From Thermus oshimai DSM 12092 (GTDB lineage Bacteria; Deinococcota; Deinococci; Deinococcales; Thermaceae): DNA of 64,000 nt. Within the stretch, counting starts at the first letter, position 1. Every line of letters begins with the position of its first letter. Below the pieces are notes generated by a model. The model saw nothing but the letters and a program-made list of their open reading frames with translations. It did no database searches and was not told the DNA's origin. This document shows positions 34,852 to 47,619 of this stretch, one piece after another. The stretch lies in contig NZ_KB890614.1 of NCBI RefSeq assembly GCF_000373145.1, positions 62,001 through 126,000 on the forward strand, in the 5' to 3' direction. The position numbers were made by a program, and so were the translations under genes.

Positions 34852-36807
34852 ATGACCGAGACCAAAGACCTAGCCGCCCTTTCGGTGAACGCCATCCGCT
34901 TTTTGGCCATAGACGCCGTGGAGAAGGCGAGAAGCGGCCACCCCGGCATGCCCATGGCCATGGCCCCCCTGGCCTACCTCCTCTTCCGGGAGGTCCTGCG
35001 CCACCACCCCGAAGACCCCTTGTGGCCGGACCGGGACCGGTTCGTCCTCTCCGCAGGGCACGGCTCCATGCTCCTTTATGCCGTCCTCCACCTCACGGGC
35101 TACGACCTTCCCCTGGAGGAGCTCCAGCGCTTCCGCCAATGGGGCTCCAAGACCCCCGGCCACCCCGAGCGGGGCCACACCCCAGGGGTGGAGGTGACCA
35201 CGGGGCCCTTGGGCCAGGGGATCTCCACCGCGGTGGGCCTGGCCTTGGCGGAGAAGAAGCTCGCCCTGGAGTTCAACCGCCCGGGGCACACGGTGGTGGA
35301 CCACTGGACCTACGTCCTGGCCTCGGACGGGGACCTGATGGAGGGGGTTTCCGGGGAGGCGAGCTCTTTGGCGGGCACCTGGGGGCTTTCCAAGCTCATC
35401 GTCTTCTGGGACGACAACCGCATCTCCATTGACGGCCCCACGGACCTGGCCTTCACGGAGGACGTCCTCGCCCGCTACCGGGCCTACGGCTGGCAGACCC
35501 TGAGGGTGGAGGACGCCAACGACCTCTCCGCCCTCCAGCACGCCCTACGGCTCGCCCAGCTGGACGAGCGGCCCACCCTCATCGCCGTGCGGAGCCACAT
35601 CGGCTACGGCTCCCCCAAGCAGGACTCCCACAAGGCCCATGGGGAGCCCTTGGGGCCGGAGGCGGTGGAGGCCACCCGCAAGGCCCTGGGCTGGCCCTAC
35701 CCGCCTTTCGTGGTGCCGGAGGAGGTCTACCGCCACATGGACATGCGCCCGAGGGGCCGGGCCCTGAAGGAGGAATGGGAAAGGCGCCTCGAGGCCTACG
35801 CCAAGGCCTACCCTGACCTCTACGAGGAGCTCCTCCGCCGCCTCAAGGGGGAGCTACCCCCCTTGCCCGAAACCCCTCCCGCCTTTGACAAGCCCGTGGC
35901 CACCCGGGCGGCAAGCGGCCGCACCCTGGACGAGATCGCCCCCAGGATGCCCGAGCTCCTTGGGGGTAGCGCCGACCTCACCCCCTCCAACAACACCCAG
36001 GCCAAGGGGATGGCGGACTTTTCCCGGGAGAACCCTTCCGGCCGCTACCTCCACTTCGGGGTGCGGGAGCACGCCATGGGGGCCATCCTGAACGGGCTCA
36101 ACCTCCACGGGGGGTATAGGGCCTACGGGGGGACCTTCCTGGTCTTCTCCGACTACATGCGCCCCGCCCTCCGCCTTGCCGCCCTCATGGGGACCCCCAC
36201 GGTCTTTGTCTTCACCCACGACTCCATCGCCCTTGGGGAGGACGGCCCCACCCACCAGCCCGTGGAGCACCTCATGGCCCTGAGGGCCATGCCGGACCTT
36301 TGGGTGATCCGTCCCGCGGACGCCCACGAGACCTTCTACGCCTGGCAGGTGGCCTTGAGGCGGAAGGAAGGCCCCACCGCCCTCATCCTCACCCGCCAGG
36401 CGGTGCCCCTCCTTTCCCCGGAGAAGGCGAAAGGGCTCCTAAAGGGCGGGTACGTCCTGGAGGAGGACGAGGAGCCCGAGGGCATCCTGGTGGCCACGGG
36501 GAGCGAGGTCCACCTGGCCCTCAGGGCCAAGGCCCTCCTGAACGGAAAGGGGCGGCGGGTGCGGGTGGTGAGCCTGCCTTCTTGGGAGCTCTTTGAGGCC
36601 CAGCCTGCGGAGTACCGGGAGCAGGTTCTCCCCAAAGGGCTTCCCACGGTGGCGGTGGAGGCGGGGGCCAGCTTGGGCTGGGAGCGGTACGCCCATAGGG
36701 CAGTGGGCCTGGACCGCTTCGGGGCCAGCGCCCCCTACCCCGAGGTCTACGAGCGCCTGGGCTTCACCCCGGAGCGGGTGGCGGAGGCCTTGGAAGAGCT
36801 CCTATGA
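34852..36807 (+). CDS. tkt: Transketolase (Calvin cycle)
   Basis: 651 aa thiamine-diphosphate enzyme. The N-terminal [20 protein letters not shown], the ThDP-binding motif [15 protein letters not shown] and the C-terminal [20 protein letters not shown] are all present. In the Calvin cycle it regenerates xylulose-5-P, erythrose-4-P and ribose-5-P; it also serves the pentose phosphate pathway. First gene of the upstream cbb operon; the next gene overlaps by 4 nt. A purine-rich RBS precedes the ATG. Confidence 0.94.
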
Positions 36808-37496
36808 GGTTCTGGGTGGACCCCCTACCCCGCCCTGGGGCCTACCGGGAGGTGGCCATCGTGGTGGACGTGATCCGGGCCACCACCACCGCGGGGGTCT
36901 ACCTGGAGGCGGGGGCCGAGGCTCTGGTCCTGGCCCCCTCCCTCGAGGCCGCCCGGGCCCTCAGGCGCCCGGGGGAGGTCCTGGCGGGGGAGGTGGGGGG
37001 GCTTAGGCCCGAGGGGTTTGACCTGGGGAACTCCCCCAAGGAGGCGGAGGGGGTCCGGGGCCGGACGGTGGTCATGGCCACCACCAACGGCACCCGGGCG
37101 GCCCACGCGGTCAAGGGGGCCCGGGCCATCCTCTTGGGATCGTTGCAGAACGCCTCCAGCGTGGCCCAAAAGGCCTCGGAGCTGGGGGAGGAGGTGGCCC
37201 TGGTGGCCGCGGGCAAGGAGGGCCAGGTGGCCTTGGACGACCTCTACGCCGTGGGGGTCATCGGGGCTAGGCTGTTGGCCCTGGGGTTCCGGCCCGAAGG
37301 GGAGATGGCCCATCTGGCCCTCTTCCTGGCCCAGAGCCCGCCTTTGGAGGTCCTTTGGGTTTCCGAGGCCGCCCAGGCCCTGGAGCGGGTGGGCCTGGGG
37401 GCGGACGTGGCCCTGTGCGCCCAGGTGGACCGCCACGGGGTGGTGCCCGTCTTCCAGGGCTTCCGGGACGGGGGGATGGTTTTCGGGAGGGGCTGA
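36804..37496 (+). CDS. ComB-family (2-phosphosulfolactate phosphatase-like) protein
   Basis: 230 aa. The pattern [43 protein letters not shown] and [17 protein letters not shown] is the ComB phosphatase family. ComB acts in coenzyme M synthesis in methanogens, but bacterial homologues are often of unknown substrate. Its place between tkt and an aldolase, with overlaps on both sides, suggests it dephosphorylates a phosphorylated acid or sugar linked to the Calvin cycle. That is inference; phosphoglycolate would be one candidate. Confidence 0.8.
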
Positions 37497-38302
37497 TGCT
37501 CTTGAGCCTAAAAGAGGTCCTCCCCGAGAAGGGCCGGGCGGTGGGGGCCTTTGACGTGGTGGGCCTGGAGTGGGCGGAGGCGGTCTTGGAGGGGGCGGAA
37601 ACCCTGGGCCTGCCCGTGATCCTCAGCGTGGCCCCCCACCTGGGGGGGCCGCCCCTCCCCGCCCTGGCCCCCGGCCTCCGCCACCTGGCGGAGGCGGCCC
37701 GGGTGCCCGTGGCCCTCCACCTGGACCACGGGGAAACCCTAGAGGAGGTGGTGGAGGCCCTGCGCCTGGGGTTTACGGGGGTGATGCTGGACGGAAGCCA
37801 CCTCCCCTTGGAGGAGAACATCCGCCTCACCCGCCTGGCGGTGGAGGTGGCCCGGGCCTTCGGCGCGGGGGTGGAGGGGGAGGTGGGGGTGGTGCCGGGC
37901 CACTACGGCCCCGGGGAGGACCGGGAGGCCCCCCTCTACACCGACCCCCTCGAGGCCGAGCGCTACCTGGCGGAAACAGGGGTGGACGCCCTGGCGGTGA
38001 GCATCGGCACCCGGCACGGCCTCTACAAGGGGCCCACCCGGCTCAACCTCCCCCTTCTGGAGCGCCTTTCCGCCCTCCCCGTGCCCCTGGTGCTCCACGG
38101 GGCTTCGGGGCTTAGCCCCGAGGAGTACCGGGCCCTGGTGCAGAGGGGCATCCGCAAGATCAACCTCTACGCCGACCTGGCCCTGGAGGCGGCCCGGGCC
38201 CTGAGGGAGGTTTCGGGGGAAGGCTACTTGGACCTCATGGCGGGGATGAAGGAGGCCCTGAAGGGGCTCGCCATGGCCCGGATGCGCCTATGGTGGGGGT
38301 AA
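37496..38302 (+). CDS. Class II ketose-bisphosphate aldolase (GatY/KbaY-like)
   Basis: 268 aa zinc aldolase. The zinc and active-site motifs are VALHLDHGETLEEVVEAL, GVMLDGSHLPLEEN, EGEVGVVPG, LVLHGASGLSPEE and KINLYADL. It is shorter and more GatY/KbaY-like than the second aldolase at 46.7 kb. TGATG links it to the comB-like gene. In this cluster it could act on fructose- or sedoheptulose-bisphosphate; having two aldolases suggests a split of these roles. Confidence 0.85.
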   Translation: MLLSLKEVLPEKGRAVGAFDVVGLEWAEAVLEGAETLGLPVILSVAPHLGGPPLPALAPGLRHLAEAARVPVALHLDHGETLEEVVEALRLGFTGVMLDGSHLPLEENIRLTRLAVEVARAFGAGVEGEVGVVPGHYGPGEDREAPLYTDPLEAERYLAETGVDALAVSIGTRHGLYKGPTRLNLPLLERLSALPVPLVLHGASGLSPEEYRALVQRGIRKINLYADLALEAARALREVSGEGYLDLMAGMKEALKGLAMARMRLWWG

Positions 38303-39042
38303 AGGCCCTGCTCTTGGACCTGGACGGCACCCTGGCGGAGACGGAGGAGCTCCACCGGGAGGCCTTCAACCGCGCCTTCCGGGAGGCGGGCCTCCCCTTC
38401 TCCTGGGACCGGCCCCTCTACAAGGCCCTTCTGGAGGTGACGGGGGGCAAGGAGCGCATCGCCCACTTCCTCCGCTCCTTCCCGGATGCCCCCCGGCTTT
38501 CCGAGGAGGCCCTAACCCGCCTGCACCAGCGGAAAAACGCCCTCTACGAGGCCCTTCTTCGGGAGGAGGGGGCCCCTTTGCGCCCGGGGGTGCGAAGGCT
38601 TCTGGGGGAGGCCCGGGAGGCGGGGCTCCTCTTGGCCCTGGTCACCACCACCAGCCCGGAGAACGCCCGGGCCTTTTTGGAGACCAGCGGGCTAAAGGGG
38701 GTCTTTCACCTGGTCCTGGCGGGGGACATCGTGCCCCGCAAGAAGCCCGACCCCGCCATCTACCACCTGGCCCGAAGGGAGCTGGGCCTAGGGGAGGGGG
38801 AGGGGGTGGCGGTGGAGGACTCCCGGAACGGCCTCCTCTCCGCCCGGGGGGCGGGCTTCCCGGTGCTCATCACCCCGGGGCTCTACACCGCGGACCAGGA
38901 CTTTTCCGAGGCCCAAGGGGTGGCGGAGCACCTGGGGGAGCCGGGGCACCCGGCCCGGTTCCTCCAGGGCCCCCGGGCGGGGGAAAGGGGAGTGGTGGAC
39001 CTGGACTACCTGGAGGAGGTGAGGGGATGGTGGAGCACCTGA
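38290..39042 (+). CDS. cbbY: CbbY-type HAD phosphatase
   Basis: 250 aa HAD hydrolase. Motif I is LLLDLDGTLAETEELHREAF (Asp10 nucleophile, Asp12 acid/base), with TGGKERIAHFLR in the cap, motif II VTTTS, Lys in RKKPDPAIY and motif IV VEDSRNG. The TLAETEELH and TGGKER signatures are those of CbbY, which removes the inhibitor xylulose-1,5-bisphosphate released from RuBisCO by CbbX. Overlaps both neighbours. An unusual tail of about 30 residues ends the protein. Confidence 0.88.
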   Translation: MVGVKALLLDLDGTLAETEELHREAFNRAFREAGLPFSWDRPLYKALLEVTGGKERIAHFLRSFPDAPRLSEEALTRLHQRKNALYEALLREEGAPLRPGVRRLLGEAREAGLLLALVTTTSPENARAFLETSGLKGVFHLVLAGDIVPRKKPDPAIYHLARRELGLGEGEGVAVEDSRNGLLSARGAGFPVLITPGLYTADQDFSEAQGVAEHLGEPGHPARFLQGPRAGERGVVDLDYLEEVRGWWST

Positions 39043-39332
39043 TCGTCTTCAACGCGGAGGCGAGCCCGGAGGAGGTGCGGCGCATGGTGGCCGAGGCCAA
39101 GGCGGTCCTCACCCAGATTCCTGGGGTCTTGGGCCTGCGCTACGGGGAGGCCCTGAGCCCGGGGGCCCGGTACCGGTACTGGCTTTCCGTGGTCTTTGCG
39201 GGGCCGGAGGTGGTGGAGGTCTACCGGGACCACCCCCTGCACGTGGACTTCGCCAACCGGGTCTTCCGGCCCATGGCCAAGGACCGCATCACCACCGACT
39301 ACCTGGTCCTGGAGGGGCCATGCGCACCCTGA
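39027..39332 (+). CDS. Dabb-family (A/B barrel) small protein
   Basis: 101 aa. The start MVEHLIVFNAEASPEEVRRM and the DHPLHVDFANRVFRPMA block are typical of stress-responsive dimeric alpha-beta barrel (Dabb) proteins. The molecular role is unknown. It overlaps cbbY and the next small gene, so it is translated as part of the cbb operon. Confidence 0.75.
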   Translation: MVEHLIVFNAEASPEEVRRMVAEAKAVLTQIPGVLGLRYGEALSPGARYRYWLSVVFAGPEVVEVYRDHPLHVDFANRVFRPMAKDRITTDYLVLEGPCAP

Positions 39333-39592
39333 CCTATCGGGAGGCCGAGCCCCAGGCCCTGAAGGTGCTGGTGGACGGGGTAGGGGAGGGCCTGGTCCTC
39401 CTGGGGGAGGGGGGTTACTACGCCCTCTACTACTTCTTTGGCCTCTACGGGCGGAAGGCCCCCGACCCCGAGGAAACCCCCGACTGGGTGGAGGGCCCAA
39501 GGCCCAGCCCAGAGGGCTTCCGGGAGCCCTACGACCAGGCGAAGTGGTTGGAGGCCAACGGGTATATGCTCTTCATCAACGAGTCCAAGTAG
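39320..39592 (+). CDS. Uncharacterised 90-aa protein, paralogue 1
   Basis: I do not recognise a family. The protein is small, acidic and aromatic-rich, with no signal peptide or membrane helix. It shares a layout with the next gene: an N-terminal E-A...A...VL.DG.G..LVL segment, then GYYALYYF, a Pro-rich stretch, W.EGP, PY...K.LE and an F.N end. It overlaps the Dabb gene by 13 nt. Its location between cbbY and cbbR suggests a Calvin-cycle accessory role, but nothing more can be claimed. Confidence 0.65.
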   Translation: MRTLTYREAEPQALKVLVDGVGEGLVLLGEGGYYALYYFFGLYGRKAPDPEETPDWVEGPRPSPEGFREPYDQAKWLEANGYMLFINESK

Positions 39593-39603: not shown

Positions 39604-39873
39604 ATGGAGTACGCGGAGATGCCCTACGAGGAGGCCAGGAAGCGGGCGGTGAGGGTGCTGGAGGACGGCTATGGGGACGCGGTGGTCCTTAAGGACGAGC
39701 ACGGCTACTGGGCCTTGTACTACTTCTACTGGGCCCAGACCCCGCCCCCTGCGGCCACCCCCCACTGGATGGAGGGCCCCCTGGGGGAGGTGGGGGCCAT
39801 CCGCTCCCCTTACGAGATGAAGAAGTTCCTGGAAGAGGTGGGAGAGCCCGATTTCCTCAACGATGTAGACTAA
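39604..39873 (+). CDS. Uncharacterised 89-aa protein, paralogue 2
   Basis: A paralogue of the preceding gene: YEEARKRAVRVLEDGYGDAV, then GYWALYYFYW, a Pro-rich spacer, HWMEGPLGE, SPYEMKKFLEEVG and FLND. The ATG at 39604 follows an AGGAGGGGGAAGG RBS, 11 nt after the first copy. Soluble, acidic, no known domain. Tandem duplication followed by divergence is the simplest origin. Confidence 0.65.
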   Translation: MEYAEMPYEEARKRAVRVLEDGYGDAVVLKDEHGYWALYYFYWAQTPPPAATPHWMEGPLGEVGAIRSPYEMKKFLEEVGEPDFLNDVD

Positions 39874-39877
39874 CCCT

Positions 39878-40318
39878 GTGAGGCGGGACGCCTACCGCAT
39901 CCTCCAGGCCACGGAGACGGTCATCTACCTCTTCGCGGGCTTCCTCATCGCCGCCGGGGCGGCCATCCTCCTCCTCACCACCCTGCTGGAGGGGGTGGAG
40001 AACCTCCTGGCGGGGCGGTACCACGAGGTGGCCCTCACCCTTCTGGACCGGGTCCTCCTGGCCCTGATGCTGGCGGAGATCCTCTACACCCTGGTGCGCT
40101 TCGCCCGGGAGGGGAGCCTCGAGGCCACCCCCTTCCTCATCATCGGCATCATCGCCGCGGTGCGCCGGGTCCTGGTGCTCACCGCGGAGGCGGTGGAGAA
40201 GTTTGACCTCAGCGACCCCGCGTTTATGGCCGTCCTGGCGGAGCTCGGCCTCCTGGCCCTTCTGGTGGTGGCCTTCGCCCTGGCCATCCGCCTGGTCAAG
40301 AGCCTAGAAGGGCGATGA
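39878..40318 (+). CDS. PsiE-like small membrane protein
   Basis: 146 aa with four predicted helices. LLDRVLLALMLAEILYTLV and ATPFLIIGIIAAVRRVLVLT match the phosphate-starvation-inducible PsiE family. Function is unknown; a link to phosphate supply would fit a pathway that cycles phosphorylated sugars, but that is conjecture. The GTG start is 5 nt past the previous stop. The 3' end overlaps the convergent cbbR by 23 nt. Confidence 0.75.
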   Translation: MRRDAYRILQATETVIYLFAGFLIAAGAAILLLTTLLEGVENLLAGRYHEVALTLLDRVLLALMLAEILYTLVRFAREGSLEATPFLIIGIIAAVRRVLVLTAEAVEKFDLSDPAFMAVLAELGLLALLVVAFALAIRLVKSLEGR

Positions 40319-41201
40319 GGGCCTGGGCCGCGGGGTTGGCCACGTTCCTGGGGTAGACCAGCCAGAAAATGCGCCGGAGCTCCCCCACGGGCTCCTCCAG
40401 CCTCAGGGCCCGGAGGTTGCCCACCTTGAGGTTGGGCTGGATCACCACCCGGCTCACGATGCCCACCCCTGCCCCGGCCATGACCAGGCGCTTGGTCACC
40501 TCGTTGTTGTCCGTGTAGAAGGTGGGCTTGAGCTCCAGACCCGCCTGCTCAAAAGCCCGCTCCAGGACCCGCCAGGTCATGGAGCCCGGCTTGCGCACCA
40601 CCAGGCTCTCCTGGGCCAGCCAGGTGGGGGGCACGGTGCTCCGGTTCGCCCAGGGGTGCTCGGGGGGGACGATGAGGACCAGCTCGTCCTCGTAGAAAAG
40701 CCGCCGGTCGTACCCCTCCCAGCCCTCCACGCCCTCGAGGATGGCGAACTCCAGCTCCCCCATCCGGAGCCGCTCCGCCAGGCGCTCGGAGCTTCCGCTT
40801 TCCAGGTGCACCCGGATCCCCGGGTGCTCTTGGTGGAAGCGCTTGAGGAAGGTGGGCACCACGTAGGTGGCCATGGTGGTGGAGGCCCCAAAGGTCACCT
40901 CCCCCAGCTCCAGGCGGCCCATGGCCTGGGAGACCCGCTGGAACCCCTCCAGGGCCTGGACCACCCGCCGGGCCTCGGGGAGGAGGGCCTCCCCCACCCG
41001 GGAGAGGACCAGGTGCCGCCCCTGCCGCTCAAAGAGGGGGTGGCCCACCTGCTCCTCCAGGGTCCTCAGGTACTGGCTCACCGCGGGCTGGGTGATGCCC
41101 AAGGCCAAGGCCGCCCGGCCCACCCCTCCTTCCTCCACCACCGTGACGAAGACCCGTAATGCCGCGGGGTTGGGCAGTTTAGCGTTTTTAGATATGAGCA
41201 T
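40296..41201 (-). CDS. cbbR: LysR-family regulator, probable CbbR
   Basis: 301 aa. The N-terminal winged HTH is FVTVVEEGGVGRAALALGITQPAVSQYLRTLEEQ. The effector domain begins near EVTFGASTTMATYVVPTFL and contains VRKPGSMTW and AGAGVGIVSR. Divergent location next to glpX-cbbLS makes CbbR by far the likeliest identity; CbbR activates cbb operons in response to metabolites such as RuBP, ATP or NADPH. The ATG at 41201 is preferred to a GTG at 41252 because a TATACC box lies just upstream of it and the family N terminus fits. Confidence 0.85.
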   Translation of the reverse strand: MLISKNAKLPNPAALRVFVTVVEEGGVGRAALALGITQPAVSQYLRTLEEQVGHPLFERQGRHLVLSRVGEALLPEARRVVQALEGFQRVSQAMGRLELGEVTFGASTTMATYVVPTFLKRFHQEHPGIRVHLESGSSERLAERLRMGELEFAILEGVEGWEGYDRRLFYEDELVLIVPPEHPWANRSTVPPTWLAQESLVVRKPGSMTWRVLERAFEQAGLELKPTFYTDNNEVTKRLVMAGAGVGIVSRVVIQPNLKVGNLRALRLEEPVGELRRIFWLVYPRNVANPAAQALIALLGS

Positions 41202-41239
41202 GGGCTTATGGTATAGCCCAAAACATATGATTGCAATAA
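41201..41239 (-). promoter_or_regulatory. cbbR promoter and candidate CbbR operator
   Basis: Minus-strand TATACC (41215-41210) lies 8 nt before the cbbR ATG, with TTATTG (41239-41234) 18 nt upstream. A 20-bp inverted repeat with perfect 6-bp arms, TGGGCT-N8-AGCCCA (41201-41220), covers the -10 and the first base of the start codon. That suits autorepression by the LysR protein. Confidence 0.5.
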
Positions 41240-41259
41240 TAAAACCCCCCACCTAAGGT
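41231..41259 (+). promoter_or_regulatory. Promoter of the glpX-cbbLSX-prk-rpe-fba operon
   Basis: TTGCAA (41231-41236), a 17-nt spacer and TAAGGT (41254-41259), 6 nt before the glpX ATG, so glpX is probably leaderless. The -35 lies inside the palindrome ATTGCAAT (41230-41237) and overlaps the cbbR -35, the expected geometry for a CbbR-controlled divergent promoter. Confidence 0.65.
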
Positions 41260-41265
41260 AAGCGC

Positions 41266-42245
41266 ATGGCTATGCCTACGCGCAACCTGGGTCTGGACCT
41301 CATGCGGGCCACGGAGGCCGCCGCCTTAGCCTCCGCCCGCTGGGTGGGCCTGGGGAACAAGGAGGAGGGGGACCGGGCCGCGGTGGAGGCCATGCGCCTC
41401 ATCCTTTCCAGCCTGGACTTCCGGGCCCGGGTGGTCATCGGCGAGGGGGAGAAGGACCGGGCCCCCATGCTCTATAACGGCGAGGAGCTGGGCCAGGGGG
41501 AGGGCCCCTTCTGGGACCTGGCGGTGGACCCCGTGGAGGGCACCCGGCTTCTCGCCCTGGGGCGCCCCGGGGCCATCAGCGTCCTGGCCGCGGCCCCCGA
41601 GGGCACCCTCTTCAACCCGGGGCCGGGGTTCTACGCTGCCAAGCTGGTGGTGGGCCCGGAGGCCCGGGAGGCCATCGACCTGAAGGCCTCGGCGGCGGAC
41701 AACCTCAAGGAGATCGCCCGGGCCCTGAAGCGCTCGGTGCGGGAGCTTACGGTCTTCGTCCTGGACAAGCCCCGGCACGCCCGGCTCATAGAGGAGATCC
41801 GCTACGCGGGGGCCCGCATCACCCTCCAGACGGACGGGGACGTGGCCGGGGCCCTGGCCGCGGTGCTTCCGGGAACGGGGGTGGACGTCCTCATGGGCAC
41901 CGGGGGGACCCCGGAGGGGGTCATCGCCGCGGTGGCCGTGCGGGCCCTGGGGGGCGGGATGCAGATGCGCCTGGACCCCCAGAGCGAGGAGGAGCGCTGG
42001 AACCTGATCCACGCGGGGTTTGACCTGGAAAAGGTGTACACCCTGGAGGAGCTCTGCCGGGCGGAGGACACCCACTTCGCCGCCACCGGCATCACCGATG
42101 GGCCCTTCCTGAGGGGCGTGCGCTACGGGGCGCAGGAGGCCTGGACGGAGAGCCTGGTCATCCGCGGGGCCACCCGCACCCTGCGCAAGGTGGAGGCCCG
42201 GCACCGGCTTGAGAAGCTTCGGGGCATCAGCCCCGTGGCCTACTG

Positions 42246-42246
<1 letters not shown>
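41266..42246 (+). CDS. glpX: Class II fructose-1,6-bisphosphatase (GlpX), possible bifunctional FBPase/SBPase
   Basis: 326 aa, Li-sensitive metal phosphatase. It has VVIGEGEKDRAPMLYNGEEL, the metal site in LAVDPVEGTR (DPLEGT in most relatives), GTGGTPEGVIAAVAVRALGG and the lysine/arginine-rich C terminus. Cyanobacterial GlpX enzymes act on both fructose- and sedoheptulose-bisphosphate, which would cover both phosphatase steps of the Calvin cycle here because no other SBPase gene is seen. Operon partner of RuBisCO, 15 nt upstream of cbbL. Confidence 0.92.
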
Positions 42247-43707
<1,461 letters not shown>

Positions 43708-43719
43708 AAGGAGGAAGCC

Positions 43720-44151
43720 ATGCGGATCACCCAAGGAACCTTCTCTTACCTGCCCGACCTGACGGACGAGGAAATTCGGCTTCAGATTGAGTACATCATC
43801 AAGAACGGCTGGGCGGTCTCCATCGAGTACACCGACGACCCCCACCCCTACAACGTCTACTGGAACATGTGGGGCCTGCCCATGTTTGACCTGGAGGACG
43901 CCGCCCCCGCCTTCTACGAGTTCCAGAAGTGCCGGGAGGCCTTCCCCAACCACTACATCAAGATCAACGGCTACGACCCCTCCCCCATGTGGCAGGCCCA
44001 GCGGGTGTCCTTCATCGCCCACCGGCCCAAGGTGGAGGAGCCGGGCTTCCGCCTGCACCGGCAGCTTTACTCGGACGGGAGGCGGCTTAAGTACACCCTC
44101 GAGGCCTACGCCACCATGAGGCCTGAGGGGCAGCGCTACCAGGAGGAGTAA
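43720..44151 (+). CDS. cbbS: RuBisCO small subunit
   Basis: 143 aa. It starts MRITQGTFSYLPDLTDEEI and contains IEYTDDPHPYNVYWNMWGLP, both typical of red-type small subunits. The C-terminal extension (HRQLYSDGRRLKYTLEAYA) corresponds to the beta-hairpin that fills the central channel in red-type holoenzymes. 12 nt after cbbL with an AAAAGGAGG RBS. Confidence 0.97.
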   Translation: MRITQGTFSYLPDLTDEEIRLQIEYIIKNGWAVSIEYTDDPHPYNVYWNMWGLPMFDLEDAAPAFYEFQKCREAFPNHYIKINGYDPSPMWQAQRVSFIAHRPKVEEPGFRLHRQLYSDGRRLKYTLEAYATMRPEGQRYQEE

Positions 44152-44203: not shown

Positions 44204-45082
44204 ATGGGAGAGGAAAAGGCCCTGGCCCTGGTGAAAAACCCCGAGGTGGAGGCGGTCCTCGAGGCCCTGGACAAGGAGCTGGTGGGCCTGGCCCCGGTGA
44301 AGCGGCGCATCCGGGAGATCGCCGCCTACCTCTCCGTGGACAAGCTCCGCCGGGAGCTTAACCTGGTGGCCGACCGCCCCACCCTGCACATGGCCTTCGT
44401 GGGGCCGCCGGGCACGGGCAAGACCACGGTGGCCATGCGCATGGCCACCATCCTCCACCGCCTGGGCTACATCCGCCGCGACCACCTGGTGGTGGCCAGC
44501 CGGGACGACCTGGTGGGCCAGTACATCGGCCACACCGCCCCCAAGACCAAGGAGGTCTTGAAGCGGGCCATGGGGGGGGTGCTCTTCATTGACGAGGCCT
44601 ACAGCCTCTACCGGGCGGAGAACGAGCGGGACTACGGCCAGGAGACCATAGAGATCCTCCTCCAGGTGATGGAGAACCAGCGGGAGGACCTGGTGGTCAT
44701 CCTGGCGGGGTACAAGGACCGCATGGAGGAGTTCTTCGCCCTGAACCCCGGGATGCGTTCCCGCATCGCCCACCACATTGAGTTCCCCCCCTATAACCTG
44801 GAAGAACTCTACCAGATTGGCCTGATCATGCTGGAGAAGCAGGGGTACCGCCTCACTCCCGAGGCCGAGGTGGCCTTTAAGGAGTACCTGGAGCGGCGGA
44901 TGGAACGCCCCAACTTCGCCTACGCCAGGAGCGTGCGCAACGCCATAGATCGCTTCAAGCTCCGCCAGGCCTACCGCCTCTACCAGAAGGCGGGCCCCGT
45001 GACCCCCGAGGAGCTGGTGACCATCACCGCGGACGACATCTACGCCAGCTCCCTCTTTAAGGAGGAGGAGCATGCCCCATAG
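44204..45082 (+). CDS. cbbX: Red-type RuBisCO activase CbbX
   Basis: 292 aa AAA+ ATPase. Walker A is GPPGTGKTT (67-75), the pore loop is [10 protein letters not shown], Walker B is [13 protein letters not shown] (LFIDEA about 127-132) and sensor 1 is [10 protein letters not shown]. CbbX threads the RbcL C-terminal tail to release tight-binding sugar phosphates. Its presence confirms the red-type assignment. An AAGGAGG RBS precedes the ATG; its stop overlaps prk by 11 nt. Confidence 0.95.
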
Positions 45083-46037
45083 GCCCTTTATGCTCGGCAT
45101 CGCCGGGGACTCCGGGGCGGGGAAGACCACCCTGTCCAGCGGGGTGGCCCGGCTTCTCGGCGTGGAGCGGACCACCAACATCTGCGTGGACGACTACCAC
45201 AAGTACGATCGCAAGCAGCGGAAGGAACTGGGCATCACCCCCTTGAACCCGGCCTGCAACTACATGGACATCATGGAGCAGCACGTCCGGCTCCTTTCCG
45301 AGGGGGAACCCATCCTGAAGCCCGTCTACAACCACACCACCGGCACCTTTGACCCCCCGGTTTACGTGCCCGCCCCCCGGGCGGTGGAGGAGGGGGGGCG
45401 GCTCATCCCCCGGGTGGTGATCCTGGAGGGGCTCCTCACCCTCTTCTCCCCCGAGATGCGGGGCCGCTACCACCTCACGGTCTACCTGGACCCCGAGGAG
45501 GAGCTCCGCCGGGAGTGGAAGGTGAAGCGGGACGTGGCCAAGCGGGGCTACACCCCCGAGGAGGTCCTGGCGGACATAGAGCGGCGCATGCCCGACTCCC
45601 GGGCCTTCATCTGGCCCCAGAAGGCCCACGCGGACATCATCGTCCGCTTCTACCGCCCCCCGGGGTACGATCCGGAAAACCCCAGCACCCTGAACGTCCG
45701 CATCACCCTGAAGCACACCCTTCCCCGGCTGGACCTCTCCGAGGTCCTCCACTCCGCCTACGAGGACGAGGCCCTGATCCGGCTGGAGGCCCGCAAGGAA
45801 GCGGACATCCTGGACATCACCGGCAACGTCCGCCCCGAGCAGGCCCAGACCTTTGAGCGCATCATCTGGGAGCACCTAGGCCACCACGCGGAGCACTTTG
45901 ACCCCAGCCTGGTGGGCACCTTCTGGGACAAAGCGGGGCAGAGCTACCCCCTGGCCCTGACCCAGCTCATCATCGCCTACTACCTGGTTAAGATGCGGGA
46001 GCTGGCCATCGAGCGGGGGCACCTGCGGGTGGCCTAG
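45072..46037 (+). CDS. prk: Phosphoribulokinase, class II (plant/cyanobacterial type)
   Basis: 321 aa, makes ribulose-1,5-bisphosphate from ribulose-5-phosphate. The P-loop is [12 protein letters not shown], followed by [19 protein letters not shown] and [14 protein letters not shown], all class II features; proteobacterial class I enzymes look different. The P-loop Cys16 of the plant enzyme is Ala16 here, while the cysteine before DDYH is kept, so thioredoxin regulation as in chloroplasts is unlikely. It overlaps cbbX by 11 nt and is followed by rpe. Confidence 0.93.
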
Positions 46038-46046
46038 GAGGCAAGG

Positions 46047-46715
46047 ATGCTGAAGTTCGCGCCCTCCATCCTCACGGCGGACCTTTCCCGGCTGGCCGAG
46101 GCCATCGGGGAGGCGGAGGCGGCGGGGGTGGACTGGATCCACCTGGACGTGATGGACGGGGTCTTCGTCCCCAACCTCACCTTCGGCCCCCTCCTGGTGG
46201 AGGCGGTGCGCCGGGTGACCGCCCTGCCCCTGGATGTCCACCTCATGATCGTGAGCCCGGAGCGCTACCTCGAGGACTTCGCCCGGGCGGGGGCCGACCT
46301 CATCACCGTCCACTACGAGGCCACCCCCCACGCCCACCGGGCGGTCCAGAAGATCAAGGAGCTGGGGAAGAAGGCGGGGCTGGCCATCAACCCGGCCACG
46401 CCCCTGGAGGCCTTTGAACCCCTTCTCCCCGAGCTGGACCTGGCCCTCCTCATGAGCGTGAACCCGGGGTTTGGAGGGCAGAAGTACATCCCCCGCTCCA
46501 CCGAGAGGCTCCGCCGGCTCAAGGCCATGCGGGACGCCCTCAACCCCAGGTGCCTCATAGAGGTGGACGGGGGGGTGAACCTGTCCACCGTGGCCGAGGT
46601 CTACCGGGCAGGGGCCGACGTGGCGGTGGCGGGGAGCGCGCTTTTCAACGATAGGCCGGTGGCGGAAAACCTTAAGGCGCTAAAGGAGGTTCTCTATGCC
46701 CTTGGTGGTCGGTAA
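46047..46715 (+). CDS. rpe: Ribulose-phosphate 3-epimerase
   Basis: 222 aa TIM barrel. FAPSILTADLSRLAEAI, HLDVMDGVFVPNLTFGP, HLMIVSPERYLEDFARAGAD, VNPGFGGQKYIP and EVDGGVN are all diagnostic. It regenerates ribulose-5-phosphate for Prk. A GGAGG RBS precedes the ATG; it overlaps fba by 20 nt. Confidence 0.95.
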   Translation: MLKFAPSILTADLSRLAEAIGEAEAAGVDWIHLDVMDGVFVPNLTFGPLLVEAVRRVTALPLDVHLMIVSPERYLEDFARAGADLITVHYEATPHAHRAVQKIKELGKKAGLAINPATPLEAFEPLLPELDLALLMSVNPGFGGQKYIPRSTERLRRLKAMRDALNPRCLIEVDGGVNLSTVAEVYRAGADVAVAGSALFNDRPVAENLKALKEVLYALGGR

Positions 46716-47619
46716 GGAAGTGCTGGACAAGGCTCGGCGGGAAGGCTACGCGGTCCCCAGCTTCAACACCAACAACCTGGAGATCACCCAGGCCATCCTG
46801 GAGGTGGCCGAGGAGCTTAGGGCCCCGGTCTTCATTCAGGTTTCCGACGGGGCCCGCAAGTACGCGGGCATGGACAACCTGGCCAACCTGGTGAAGGACA
46901 TGGCAAGCCGCGTCCGGGTGCCCGTGGTCTTGCACCTGGACCACGGGGCGGACTTCAAAATGGTCATGCAGGCCCTGCGGGCGGGCTTCACCAGCGTGAT
47001 GATCGACGCCAGCCACCACCCCTTCCACGAGAACGTGGCCGAGACCAAGAAGGTGGTGGAGGCGGCCCACGCGGTGGGGGTGAGCGTGGAGGCAGAGCTC
47101 GGCCGCCTCCAGGGTATAGAGGACAACATCCAAGTTTCCGAGGCGGAGGCCTTCCTCACCGACCCCGAGGAGGCGGAGCGCTTTGTGGCGGAAACGGGGA
47201 TTGACTACCTGGCCATCGCCATCGGCACCAGCCACGGGGCCTACAAGGGGAAGGGCCGGCCCTACATTGACCACAAGCGCCTGGAGGAGATCGCCAACCG
47301 GGTCTCCATCCCCCTGGTCCTCCACGGGGCCAGCGGGGTGCCCACCTGGCTCAAGGAGAAGCTCCTGGCCACGGGGGCCGAGCTCAAGGAGGCCACGGGC
47401 ATCCACGACGAGGACATCCGGAAGGCCATCCCCAACGGCATTGCCAAGATCAACATTGACACCGACCTGCGCCTGGCCATGACCCTGGGCATCCGGGAGG
47501 TGGTCACGCAGAACCCCAAGGAGTTCGACCCCCGGAAGATCATCGGCAAGGGGCGGGACTACCTCAAGATGGTCATCCGGGAGAAGTTTGAGCTCATGGG
47601 GACCGTGGGCCGGGCCTGA
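46696..47619 (+). CDS. fba: Class II fructose-bisphosphate aldolase
   Basis: 307 aa zinc aldolase resembling the Thermus aquaticus/caldophilus enzyme. VPSFNTNNLEITQAILE, VVLHLDHGADFKMVMQALRA, the EAELGRLQGIED segment, AIGTSHGAYKGKGRP, LVLHGASGVP and KINIDTDLRLA cover the metal and substrate sites. It would condense triose phosphates to fructose- and sedoheptulose-bisphosphate. RBS AAGGAGG lies inside rpe. The operon ends here; the aquaporin-like gene converges and overlaps by 26 nt. Confidence 0.93.
   Translation: MPLVVGKEVLDKARREGYAVPSFNTNNLEITQAILEVAEELRAPVFIQVSDGARKYAGMDNLANLVKDMASRVRVPVVLHLDHGADFKMVMQALRAGFTSVMIDASHHPFHENVAETKKVVEAAHAVGVSVEAELGRLQGIEDNIQVSEAEAFLTDPEEAERFVAETGIDYLAIAIGTSHGAYKGKGRPYIDHKRLEEIANRVSIPLVLHGASGVPTWLKEKLLATGAELKEATGIHDEDIRKAIPNGIAKINIDTDLRLAMTLGIREVVTQNPKEFDPRKIIGKGRDYLKMVIREKFELMGTVGRA

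Follow-up and report, generated by a model that had tools for sequence, protein, structure and literature searches.

A ComB-family gene in the Calvin-cycle cluster of Thermus is a candidate 2-phosphoglycolate phosphatase

Background

What does a phosphatase named for coenzyme M synthesis do among the genes of the Calvin cycle? The question is raised by a stretch of 64,000 nucleotides from Thermus oshimai DSM 12092 (hereafter the window; positions 62001-126000 of contig C13 of this genome, G000 in our set). In the window, a ComB-family gene, here designated comB2 (36804-37496), and a gene for a class II aldolase, ald2 (37496-38302), lie between a transketolase gene, tkt (34852-36807), and cbbY (38290-39042), all on the + strand. 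The four genes are joined head to tail: tkt and comB2 overlap by ATGA, comB2 and ald2 by TGATG, and ald2 and cbbY by 13 bases. The arrangement from which the original prediction for this locus started, that of overlapping ComB-family and class II aldolase genes between tkt and cbbY, is thus confirmed in its coordinates and junctions.

2-Phosphoglycolate, a harmful by-product that RubisCO forms with oxygen, is the simplest of the 2-hydroxycarboxylic acid phosphates and is named in the entry for EC 3.1.3.71. ComB has been described as specific for phosphates of this class (PMC3087415). The genus Thermus was recently shown to hold autotrophs, in a study of T. brevis PS18 (PMC13019369). Its list of Calvin-cycle enzymes passes over whatever is encoded from transketolase (KQ693_12605) to the LysR gene (KQ693_12565), an interval in which locus tags spaced by five would accommodate seven genes, the number found in the window; the terms phosphosulfolactate, phosphoglycolate and cbbY do not occur in its main text. 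The main text of a second paper on Thermus RubisCO (PMC5015936) is likewise free of the terms phosphosulfolactate, phosphoglycolate, aldolase and sedoheptulose, and in the open-access literature we found no report linking ComB to phosphoglycolate or RubisCO.

In this study, we used comparative genomics to examine the function of comB2 and its neighbors. The best explanation, which we favor with moderate confidence, is that the Thermaceae have added a phosphatase of the ComB fold to their Calvin-cycle genes, where it hydrolyzes 2-phosphoglycolate. The argument is built on gene content and order, co-occurrence, a separate recruitment, intact motifs and the lack of a ComA match in the genus.

Results and discussion

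ComB2 and its paralogs

Sequence comparisons and a predicted structure place ComB2 in the ComB (PF04029) fold family. The protein scores 197.9 bits against PF04029 (Pfam cut-off 26.4) and stays below the cut-offs of all eight NCBIfam ComB models that it matches, the best being NF010700 (236.5 versus 332). At an E-value of 0.01, only ComB models of Pfam and NCBIfam were matched, with no match to HAD models or to PGP_bact (TIGR01449). The predicted model (predicted local distance difference test score, pLDDT, 95) is close to the T. thermophilus structure 2z0j (TTHA1438; template modeling (TM) score 0.96, Foldseek E-value 8e-28) and to Clostridium ComB, 1vr0 (TM 0.89, Foldseek E-value 1e-18). The motifs VDVIRAT, GFDxGNSP, TTNGT and AGKEG..DD are intact in the window protein, show few substitutions among its relatives, and have similar counterparts in 1vr0 and 2yyv. 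Intact comB2 genes evolve under purifying selection, with a median ratio of nonsynonymous to synonymous substitution rates (dN/dS) of 0.28 (55 pairs, 11 rows).

The genome contains two further PF04029 genes (positions 50993-51634 of contig C13 and 392286-392879 of contig C1), one a canonical comB and the other a strongly diverged third paralog. PF04029 genes, and canonical comB in particular, were found in 27 of 27 Thermus genomes; in one of these (G024), canonical comB is split into two frames (L066:4106-4812). The third, diverged protein (L003:1423-2139) lacks TTNGT, and its gene adjoins genes that on reading appear glycosyltransferase-like and ThiL-like.

Both the family name and the fold would fit a ComB2 that keeps its textbook role, dephosphorylating 2-phosphosulfolactate for the metabolism of sulfolactate or coenzyme M, with an incidental position in the cluster. 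ComB2 shares its predicted fold and motifs with ComB (PF04029; 1vr0, 2yyv, 2z0j/TTHA1438) but differs from the ComB of coenzyme M synthesis in sitting in a Calvin-cycle cluster. ComA (PF02679) had no match in any of the 27 Thermus genomes, which leaves the textbook substrate without a known source; the same profile matched in 2 of 14 control genomes, those of B. subtilis and M. jannaschii. Further evidence against the textbook role is the strict tie to the Calvin cycle described below, which involves at least two recruitments. We consider this role very improbable, and reject a function of ComB2 in coenzyme M synthesis on the ComA result. The earlier view that this ComB has no coenzyme M role therefore gains genomic support.

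Co-occurrence with Calvin-cycle genes

Our sample comprised 50 genomes of the bacterial family, 27 from Thermus and 23 from other genera, and a second comB was counted when more than 50% identical. Form I RubisCO (at least 86% identity; pieces of 83-98% in G020) was detected in 25 of these genomes, i.e., 14 of the 27 Thermus and 11 of the 23 others. Of the 14 Thermus genomes with RubisCO, 13 showed a second comB, which is intact in 10, frameshifted in G001 and affected by deletions in G004 and G006; in the remaining one, G020, the gene is unreadable, as the contig starts inside cbbY. All 11 RubisCO-bearing genomes outside Thermus have a second comB. Where RubisCO had no match (25 genomes), a second comB was seen in G069 only. 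The completeness of G069 is 85%, and its cbbX, prk, rpe and fba1 are on a contig that opens immediately ahead of cbbX; RubisCO was probably lost there at the contig end, which would make G069 a Calvin-cycle carrier. With G069 counted as such, every one of the 25 readable carriers has a second comB (intact in 22, broken in 3), against none of the 24 non-carriers (Fisher p 1.6e-14; 4e-13 with G069 as a non-carrier; for Thermus alone, 13/13 versus 0/13, p 1.9e-7), although these p values overstate the association because related genomes are not independent.

Thirteen of the 14 Thermus genomes with RubisCO, that of the window included, share the order tkt-comB2-ald2-cbbY, which is therefore not a product of chance; the contig of the 14th (G020) begins within cbbY. 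In 10 genomes of another genus, G069 among them, the order tkt-comB2-cbbY-u90-u89 is kept (u90 and u89 are small genes discussed below), a Dabb-domain gene is recognized in 8 of the 10, and no ald2 occurs within the tkt-comB2-cbbY block. The comB2 block and the rbc operon are located well inside different contigs in G058, G059 and G064, which marks comB2 as a member of the gene set rather than a mere passenger of one operon. They are also on different contigs in G056, where the block is near a contig end and the two are possibly neighbors.

A separate recruitment in Allomeiothermus silvanus

Allomeiothermus silvanus DSM 9946 carries its Calvin-cycle gene set on plasmid pMESIL01. Here, the CbbY-type gene directly follows tkt with no comB between them, and a comB is instead the last gene of the rbc operon, 24 bases after fba1. 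Of the 735 bases of this plasmid gene, 699 align to the chromosomal canonical comB, and 693 of the 699 are identical (99%); the match is confined to the gene, with none beyond its ends. In a phylogenetic tree, both A. silvanus copies join inside the canonical clade (support 100/92). As judged from these sequences, the plasmid gene is a recruitment separate from that of comB2. Gene conversion of an older linked comB would give the same picture; with either origin, the gene set needs an ordinary ComB activity. This case is a better argument than the p values for co-occurrence. The tree is compatible with one origin or with several for the second comB copies, those of Thermus plus G071, those of the other genus and that of G058. 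Among 20 plasmid records with ComB, compared by sequence identity, only that of A. silvanus exceeds 50%, and no relative was confirmed on viral contigs.

Proposed substrate of ComB2

The substrate, the salvage pathway and the metal proposed here for ComB2 are inferred. The enzyme, probably Mg-dependent, would convert 2-phosphoglycolate, which arises when RubisCO acts as an oxygenase, to glycolate. A GlcDEF-type complex would then form glyoxylate, from which malate synthase would make malate, both enzymes being encoded elsewhere in the genome. CbbY would remove the inhibitor xylulose-1,5-bisphosphate, and tkt-comB2-cbbY would thus combine regeneration with clean-up.

The cbbY product is most similar to the CbbY structures 4uar (R. 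sphaeroides; best PDB match, E-value 8e-51) and 4uav (8.9e-42), and the next kind of protein follows at 2.3e-17. Among HAD phosphatases, its sequence is thus closest to that of characterized CbbY, a xylulose bisphosphatase (PMC9833046). CbbY xylulose-1,5-bisphosphatase (4uar, 4uav) is an HAD protein, whereas ComB2, encoded in the same block as the CbbY-type gene, is not. We also count as supported the earlier remark that no other phosphoglycolate phosphatase is visible in the cluster. CbbZ/Gph, the phosphoglycolate phosphatases of cbb operons, are HAD proteins, unlike ComB2, which matches no HAD model. Such an enzyme, CbbZ, is encoded by the cbb operons of Cupriavidus (PMC7486775), and comB2 occupies a similar genomic slot with the same proposed reaction.

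Genes for the proposed route from glycolate are present in the window genome, where glcDEF and malate synthase are no more than 9 kb away from canonical comB. Across the 27 Thermus genomes, canonical comB and glcD are less than 10 kb apart in 16; in 7 they occupy separate contigs, and in 4 the distance is large. For other genera, 23 canonical comB loci were inspected with flanking sequence of at most about 3 kb: 22 of them are without aceB or glc genes, and that of G071 has aceB at its edge. The link of canonical comB to glycolate genes is suggestive only. All 27 Thermus genomes have a glcD-like gene, none of them over the model cut-off, which was reached by 2 of 14 controls. In Cupriavidus, salvage by glycolate dehydrogenase and malate synthase ranks second to the glycerate pathway. 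As a separate observation, the malate synthase-glcDEF group near canonical comB is accompanied by an IclR regulator (L192:33-9668, corresponding to positions 42032-51667 of contig C13 in the window genome).

The same co-occurrence data would fit a RubisCO-linked phosphatase with a different substrate, such as a misfire product or another phosphorylated hydroxy acid, the phosphoglycolate phosphatase then being an unlinked HAD protein. Each genome has several HAD proteins that match PGP_bact weakly, and comB2 shares its block with an inhibitor-clearing phosphatase of the CbbY type. However, the substrates reported for ComB have the phosphate on the 2-hydroxyl beside the carboxylate, as in phosphoglycolate; the known sugar-phosphate inhibitors of RubisCO carry phosphates at the chain ends. 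In addition, the recruited copy of A. silvanus is almost identical to its general comB, which argues against a narrow new substrate. We regard a different substrate as rather unlikely. The original suggestion that ComB could be a phosphoglycolate phosphatase complementing CbbY gains support from the ComA result, co-occurrence, the A. silvanus recruitment and the reported substrate class.

Several observations weigh against phosphoglycolate hydrolysis by ComB2. With a dN/dS of 0.28, comB2 is less constrained than rpe (0.08) and rbcL (0.04). Six proteins of the window genome match PGP_bact, one of them the cluster CbbY and none over the cut-off (reached in only 1 of 14 control genomes), and other HAD proteins could serve. 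Phosphoglycolate phosphatase candidates of Synechocystis are HAD proteins (PMC6278635), and in cyanobacteria comB was described, in one published example, as a moderate neighbor of petRP and petJ and not of RubisCO (PMC9252766). The association belongs to a single bacterial family: a scan of 80 RubisCO loci from elsewhere, the best-ranked among 558 confirmed (1.53 Mb, with 57 of the 80 longer than 20 kb), gave no ComB hit at E<=10. The profile used does find the diverged third paralog (1.7e-12), and a CbbY-type match occurs in 20 of the 80 loci. A general link between ComB and RubisCO across bacteria was thus not seen. Finally, comB2 is broken in G001, G004 and G006, whose genes from rbcL to fba1 are without a stop in the alignments; either comB2 is dispensable in these organisms or it was lost in assembly. 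All three retain canonical comB, which could serve in its place.

The second aldolase

The ald2 product is a class II aldolase by its match to PF01116 (238.2 bits, cut-off 25.5), but the label GatY-like that it had been given is loose, as its score against the GatY subfamily (NF009374) is 175 bits versus a cut-off of 383. It passes no cut-off among the 20 NCBIfam aldolase models matched, the best being NF005288 (202.5 versus 396). The motifs LDHG, GTRHG and LHG, with the metal-ligand His residues and the catalytic Asp, are kept in 12 copies. All 12 copies have NLYADLA where fba1 has NIDTDLR, and in all 12 the DPR stretch is absent. In terms of the Giardia aldolase, whose residue numbers were mapped to the Thermus motifs by motif pattern, ald2 has no counterparts of D255, R259, D278 and R280, both arginines being lost in 12 of 12 copies. 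R259 and R280 are reported to bind fructose-bisphosphate (FBP) in the Giardia enzyme, and D255 and D278 to join a salt-bridge network; the R259A mutant keeps 0.0004% of kcat/Km, and the R259A/D278A double mutant 4% (PMC6692403).

The aldolase had been suggested to specialize in sedoheptulose-bisphosphate (SBP). A role as an SBP- or FBP-type aldolase of the Calvin cycle would agree with its membership in PF01116, its intact catalytic Asp and metal-ligand His motifs and its overlap with comB2 and cbbY. Its fold list is led by E-value by FBP aldolases such as 1rvg and 7ncc, and the R259 position varies even among enzymes named FBP aldolase: 7ncc and 7nc7 have Gln there while keeping DPR. The residue losses described above, with their effect in Giardia, argue against such a role, as does E. 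coli YdjI (6ofu), which lacks counterparts of both D255/R259 and DPR. YdjI gives the highest target-normalized TM score (0.91) among the 50 matches listed for ald2; identity between the two is only about 33%, and FBP aldolases are equal or higher by E-value and query-normalized TM. SqiA structures also rank high in the fold list, and a sulfosugar (SqiA-like) aldolase was considered.

The distribution of ald2 also weighs against specialization for SBP: of the 12 Calvin-cycle carriers outside Thermus, 11 have no ald2 in the block (a count that covers the block only). In addition, the same operon contains fba1, whose product is a class II aldolase of the ordinary kind and retains these substrate residues. 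Within Thermus, ald2 was found in 13 of the 14 RubisCO-bearing genomes (with a stop in G003 and a frameshift near the end in G004; unreadable in G020), and it also occurs in G071; in the 13 RubisCO-free Thermus genomes nothing exceeded 51% identity. The gene is under purifying selection (dN/dS 0.21; 64 of 66 pairs). On residues and distribution, specialization for SBP is not supported. SBP is probably not the substrate, and we judge an SBP- or FBP-type function unlikely, though somewhat less so in view of 7ncc and 7nc7, which also lack R259. Rather, ald2 is a class II aldolase that lacks the usual grip on the distal phosphate, and it more probably joins dihydroxyacetone phosphate (DHAP) to an aldehyde that has no terminal phosphate.

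Neighboring genes

The transketolase assignment of tkt is based on TIGR00232 (867.7 bits, cut-off 682). In the Thermus cluster, tkt-comB2-ald2-cbbY is followed on the + strand by a Dabb-domain gene (39027-39332; PF07876, 48.1 bits), u90 (39320-39592) and u89 (39604-39873). After u89 come a gene for a PsiE-family protein (39878-40318, + strand; PF06146, 35.6 bits, cut-off 23.9) and, on the opposite strand, an open reading frame for a LysR-type regulator in the CbbR position (40296-41252), assigned by synteny with an A. silvanus counterpart annotated as LysR family. The rest of the cluster, all on the + strand, consists of glpX (41266-42246), for a class II fructose bisphosphatase (TIGR00330, 358 bits, cut-off 259); rbcL (42262-43707), for the form I RubisCO large subunit (89% identity to the A. 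silvanus gene so annotated); rbcS (43720-44151; synteny and annotated A. silvanus counterpart); cbbX (44204-45082), for a red-type RubisCO activase (PF00004 and PF17866; counterpart annotated CbbX); prk (45072-46037), for phosphoribulokinase, and rpe (46047-46715), for ribulose-phosphate epimerase, both with annotated A. silvanus counterparts; and fba1 (46696-47619), for a class II fructose-bisphosphate aldolase (TIGR01859, 387.9 bits, cut-off 343; alignment).

The products of u90 and u89 are paralogs of about 90 residues, as seen in their alignment, with no Pfam or NCBIfam family. Matches to u89 were found in 27 of the 50 family genomes: the 25 with RubisCO, G069 and, as fragments, G062. Within the family, u89 occurs together with Calvin-cycle genes or as a remnant. 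Both genes are more constrained than comB2 (dN/dS 0.11-0.14). The Dabb-domain gene travels with the same block in most Calvin-cycle carriers. Neither u90/u89 nor the Dabb-domain protein had a match in the 80 RubisCO loci outside the family. In G003, G001, G004 and G006 (L056, L061, L062, L064), comB2, ald2 or cbbY is broken and rbcL to fba1 are without a stop; either accessory genes decay first or these are assembly errors.

A broader and more doubtful idea is that the Thermaceae possess a RubisCO clean-up module unlike those of the other autotrophs examined. It would comprise the ComB-fold phosphatase, CbbY, the Dabb-domain protein, u90 and u89, with ald2 in Thermus feeding an unphosphorylated two-carbon aldehyde back into the cycle through its condensation with DHAP. 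The general comB of Thermus, often close to genes for glycolate oxidase and malate synthase, would meet the same housekeeping need in non-autotrophs.

Conclusions

Seven of the control genomes have a ComB-family gene, and five of these, including Synechococcus, Thermotoga and Haloferax, are without a ComA match; for many such proteins, the coenzyme M name may therefore be inappropriate. If ComB2 does hydrolyze phosphoglycolate, ComB proteins in organisms without a ComA match would have a testable job, and the first step of phosphoglycolate salvage, unassigned until now, would be supplied for autotrophic Thermus. It would also mean that a RubisCO host is able to recruit an unrelated fold for phosphoglycolate hydrolysis.

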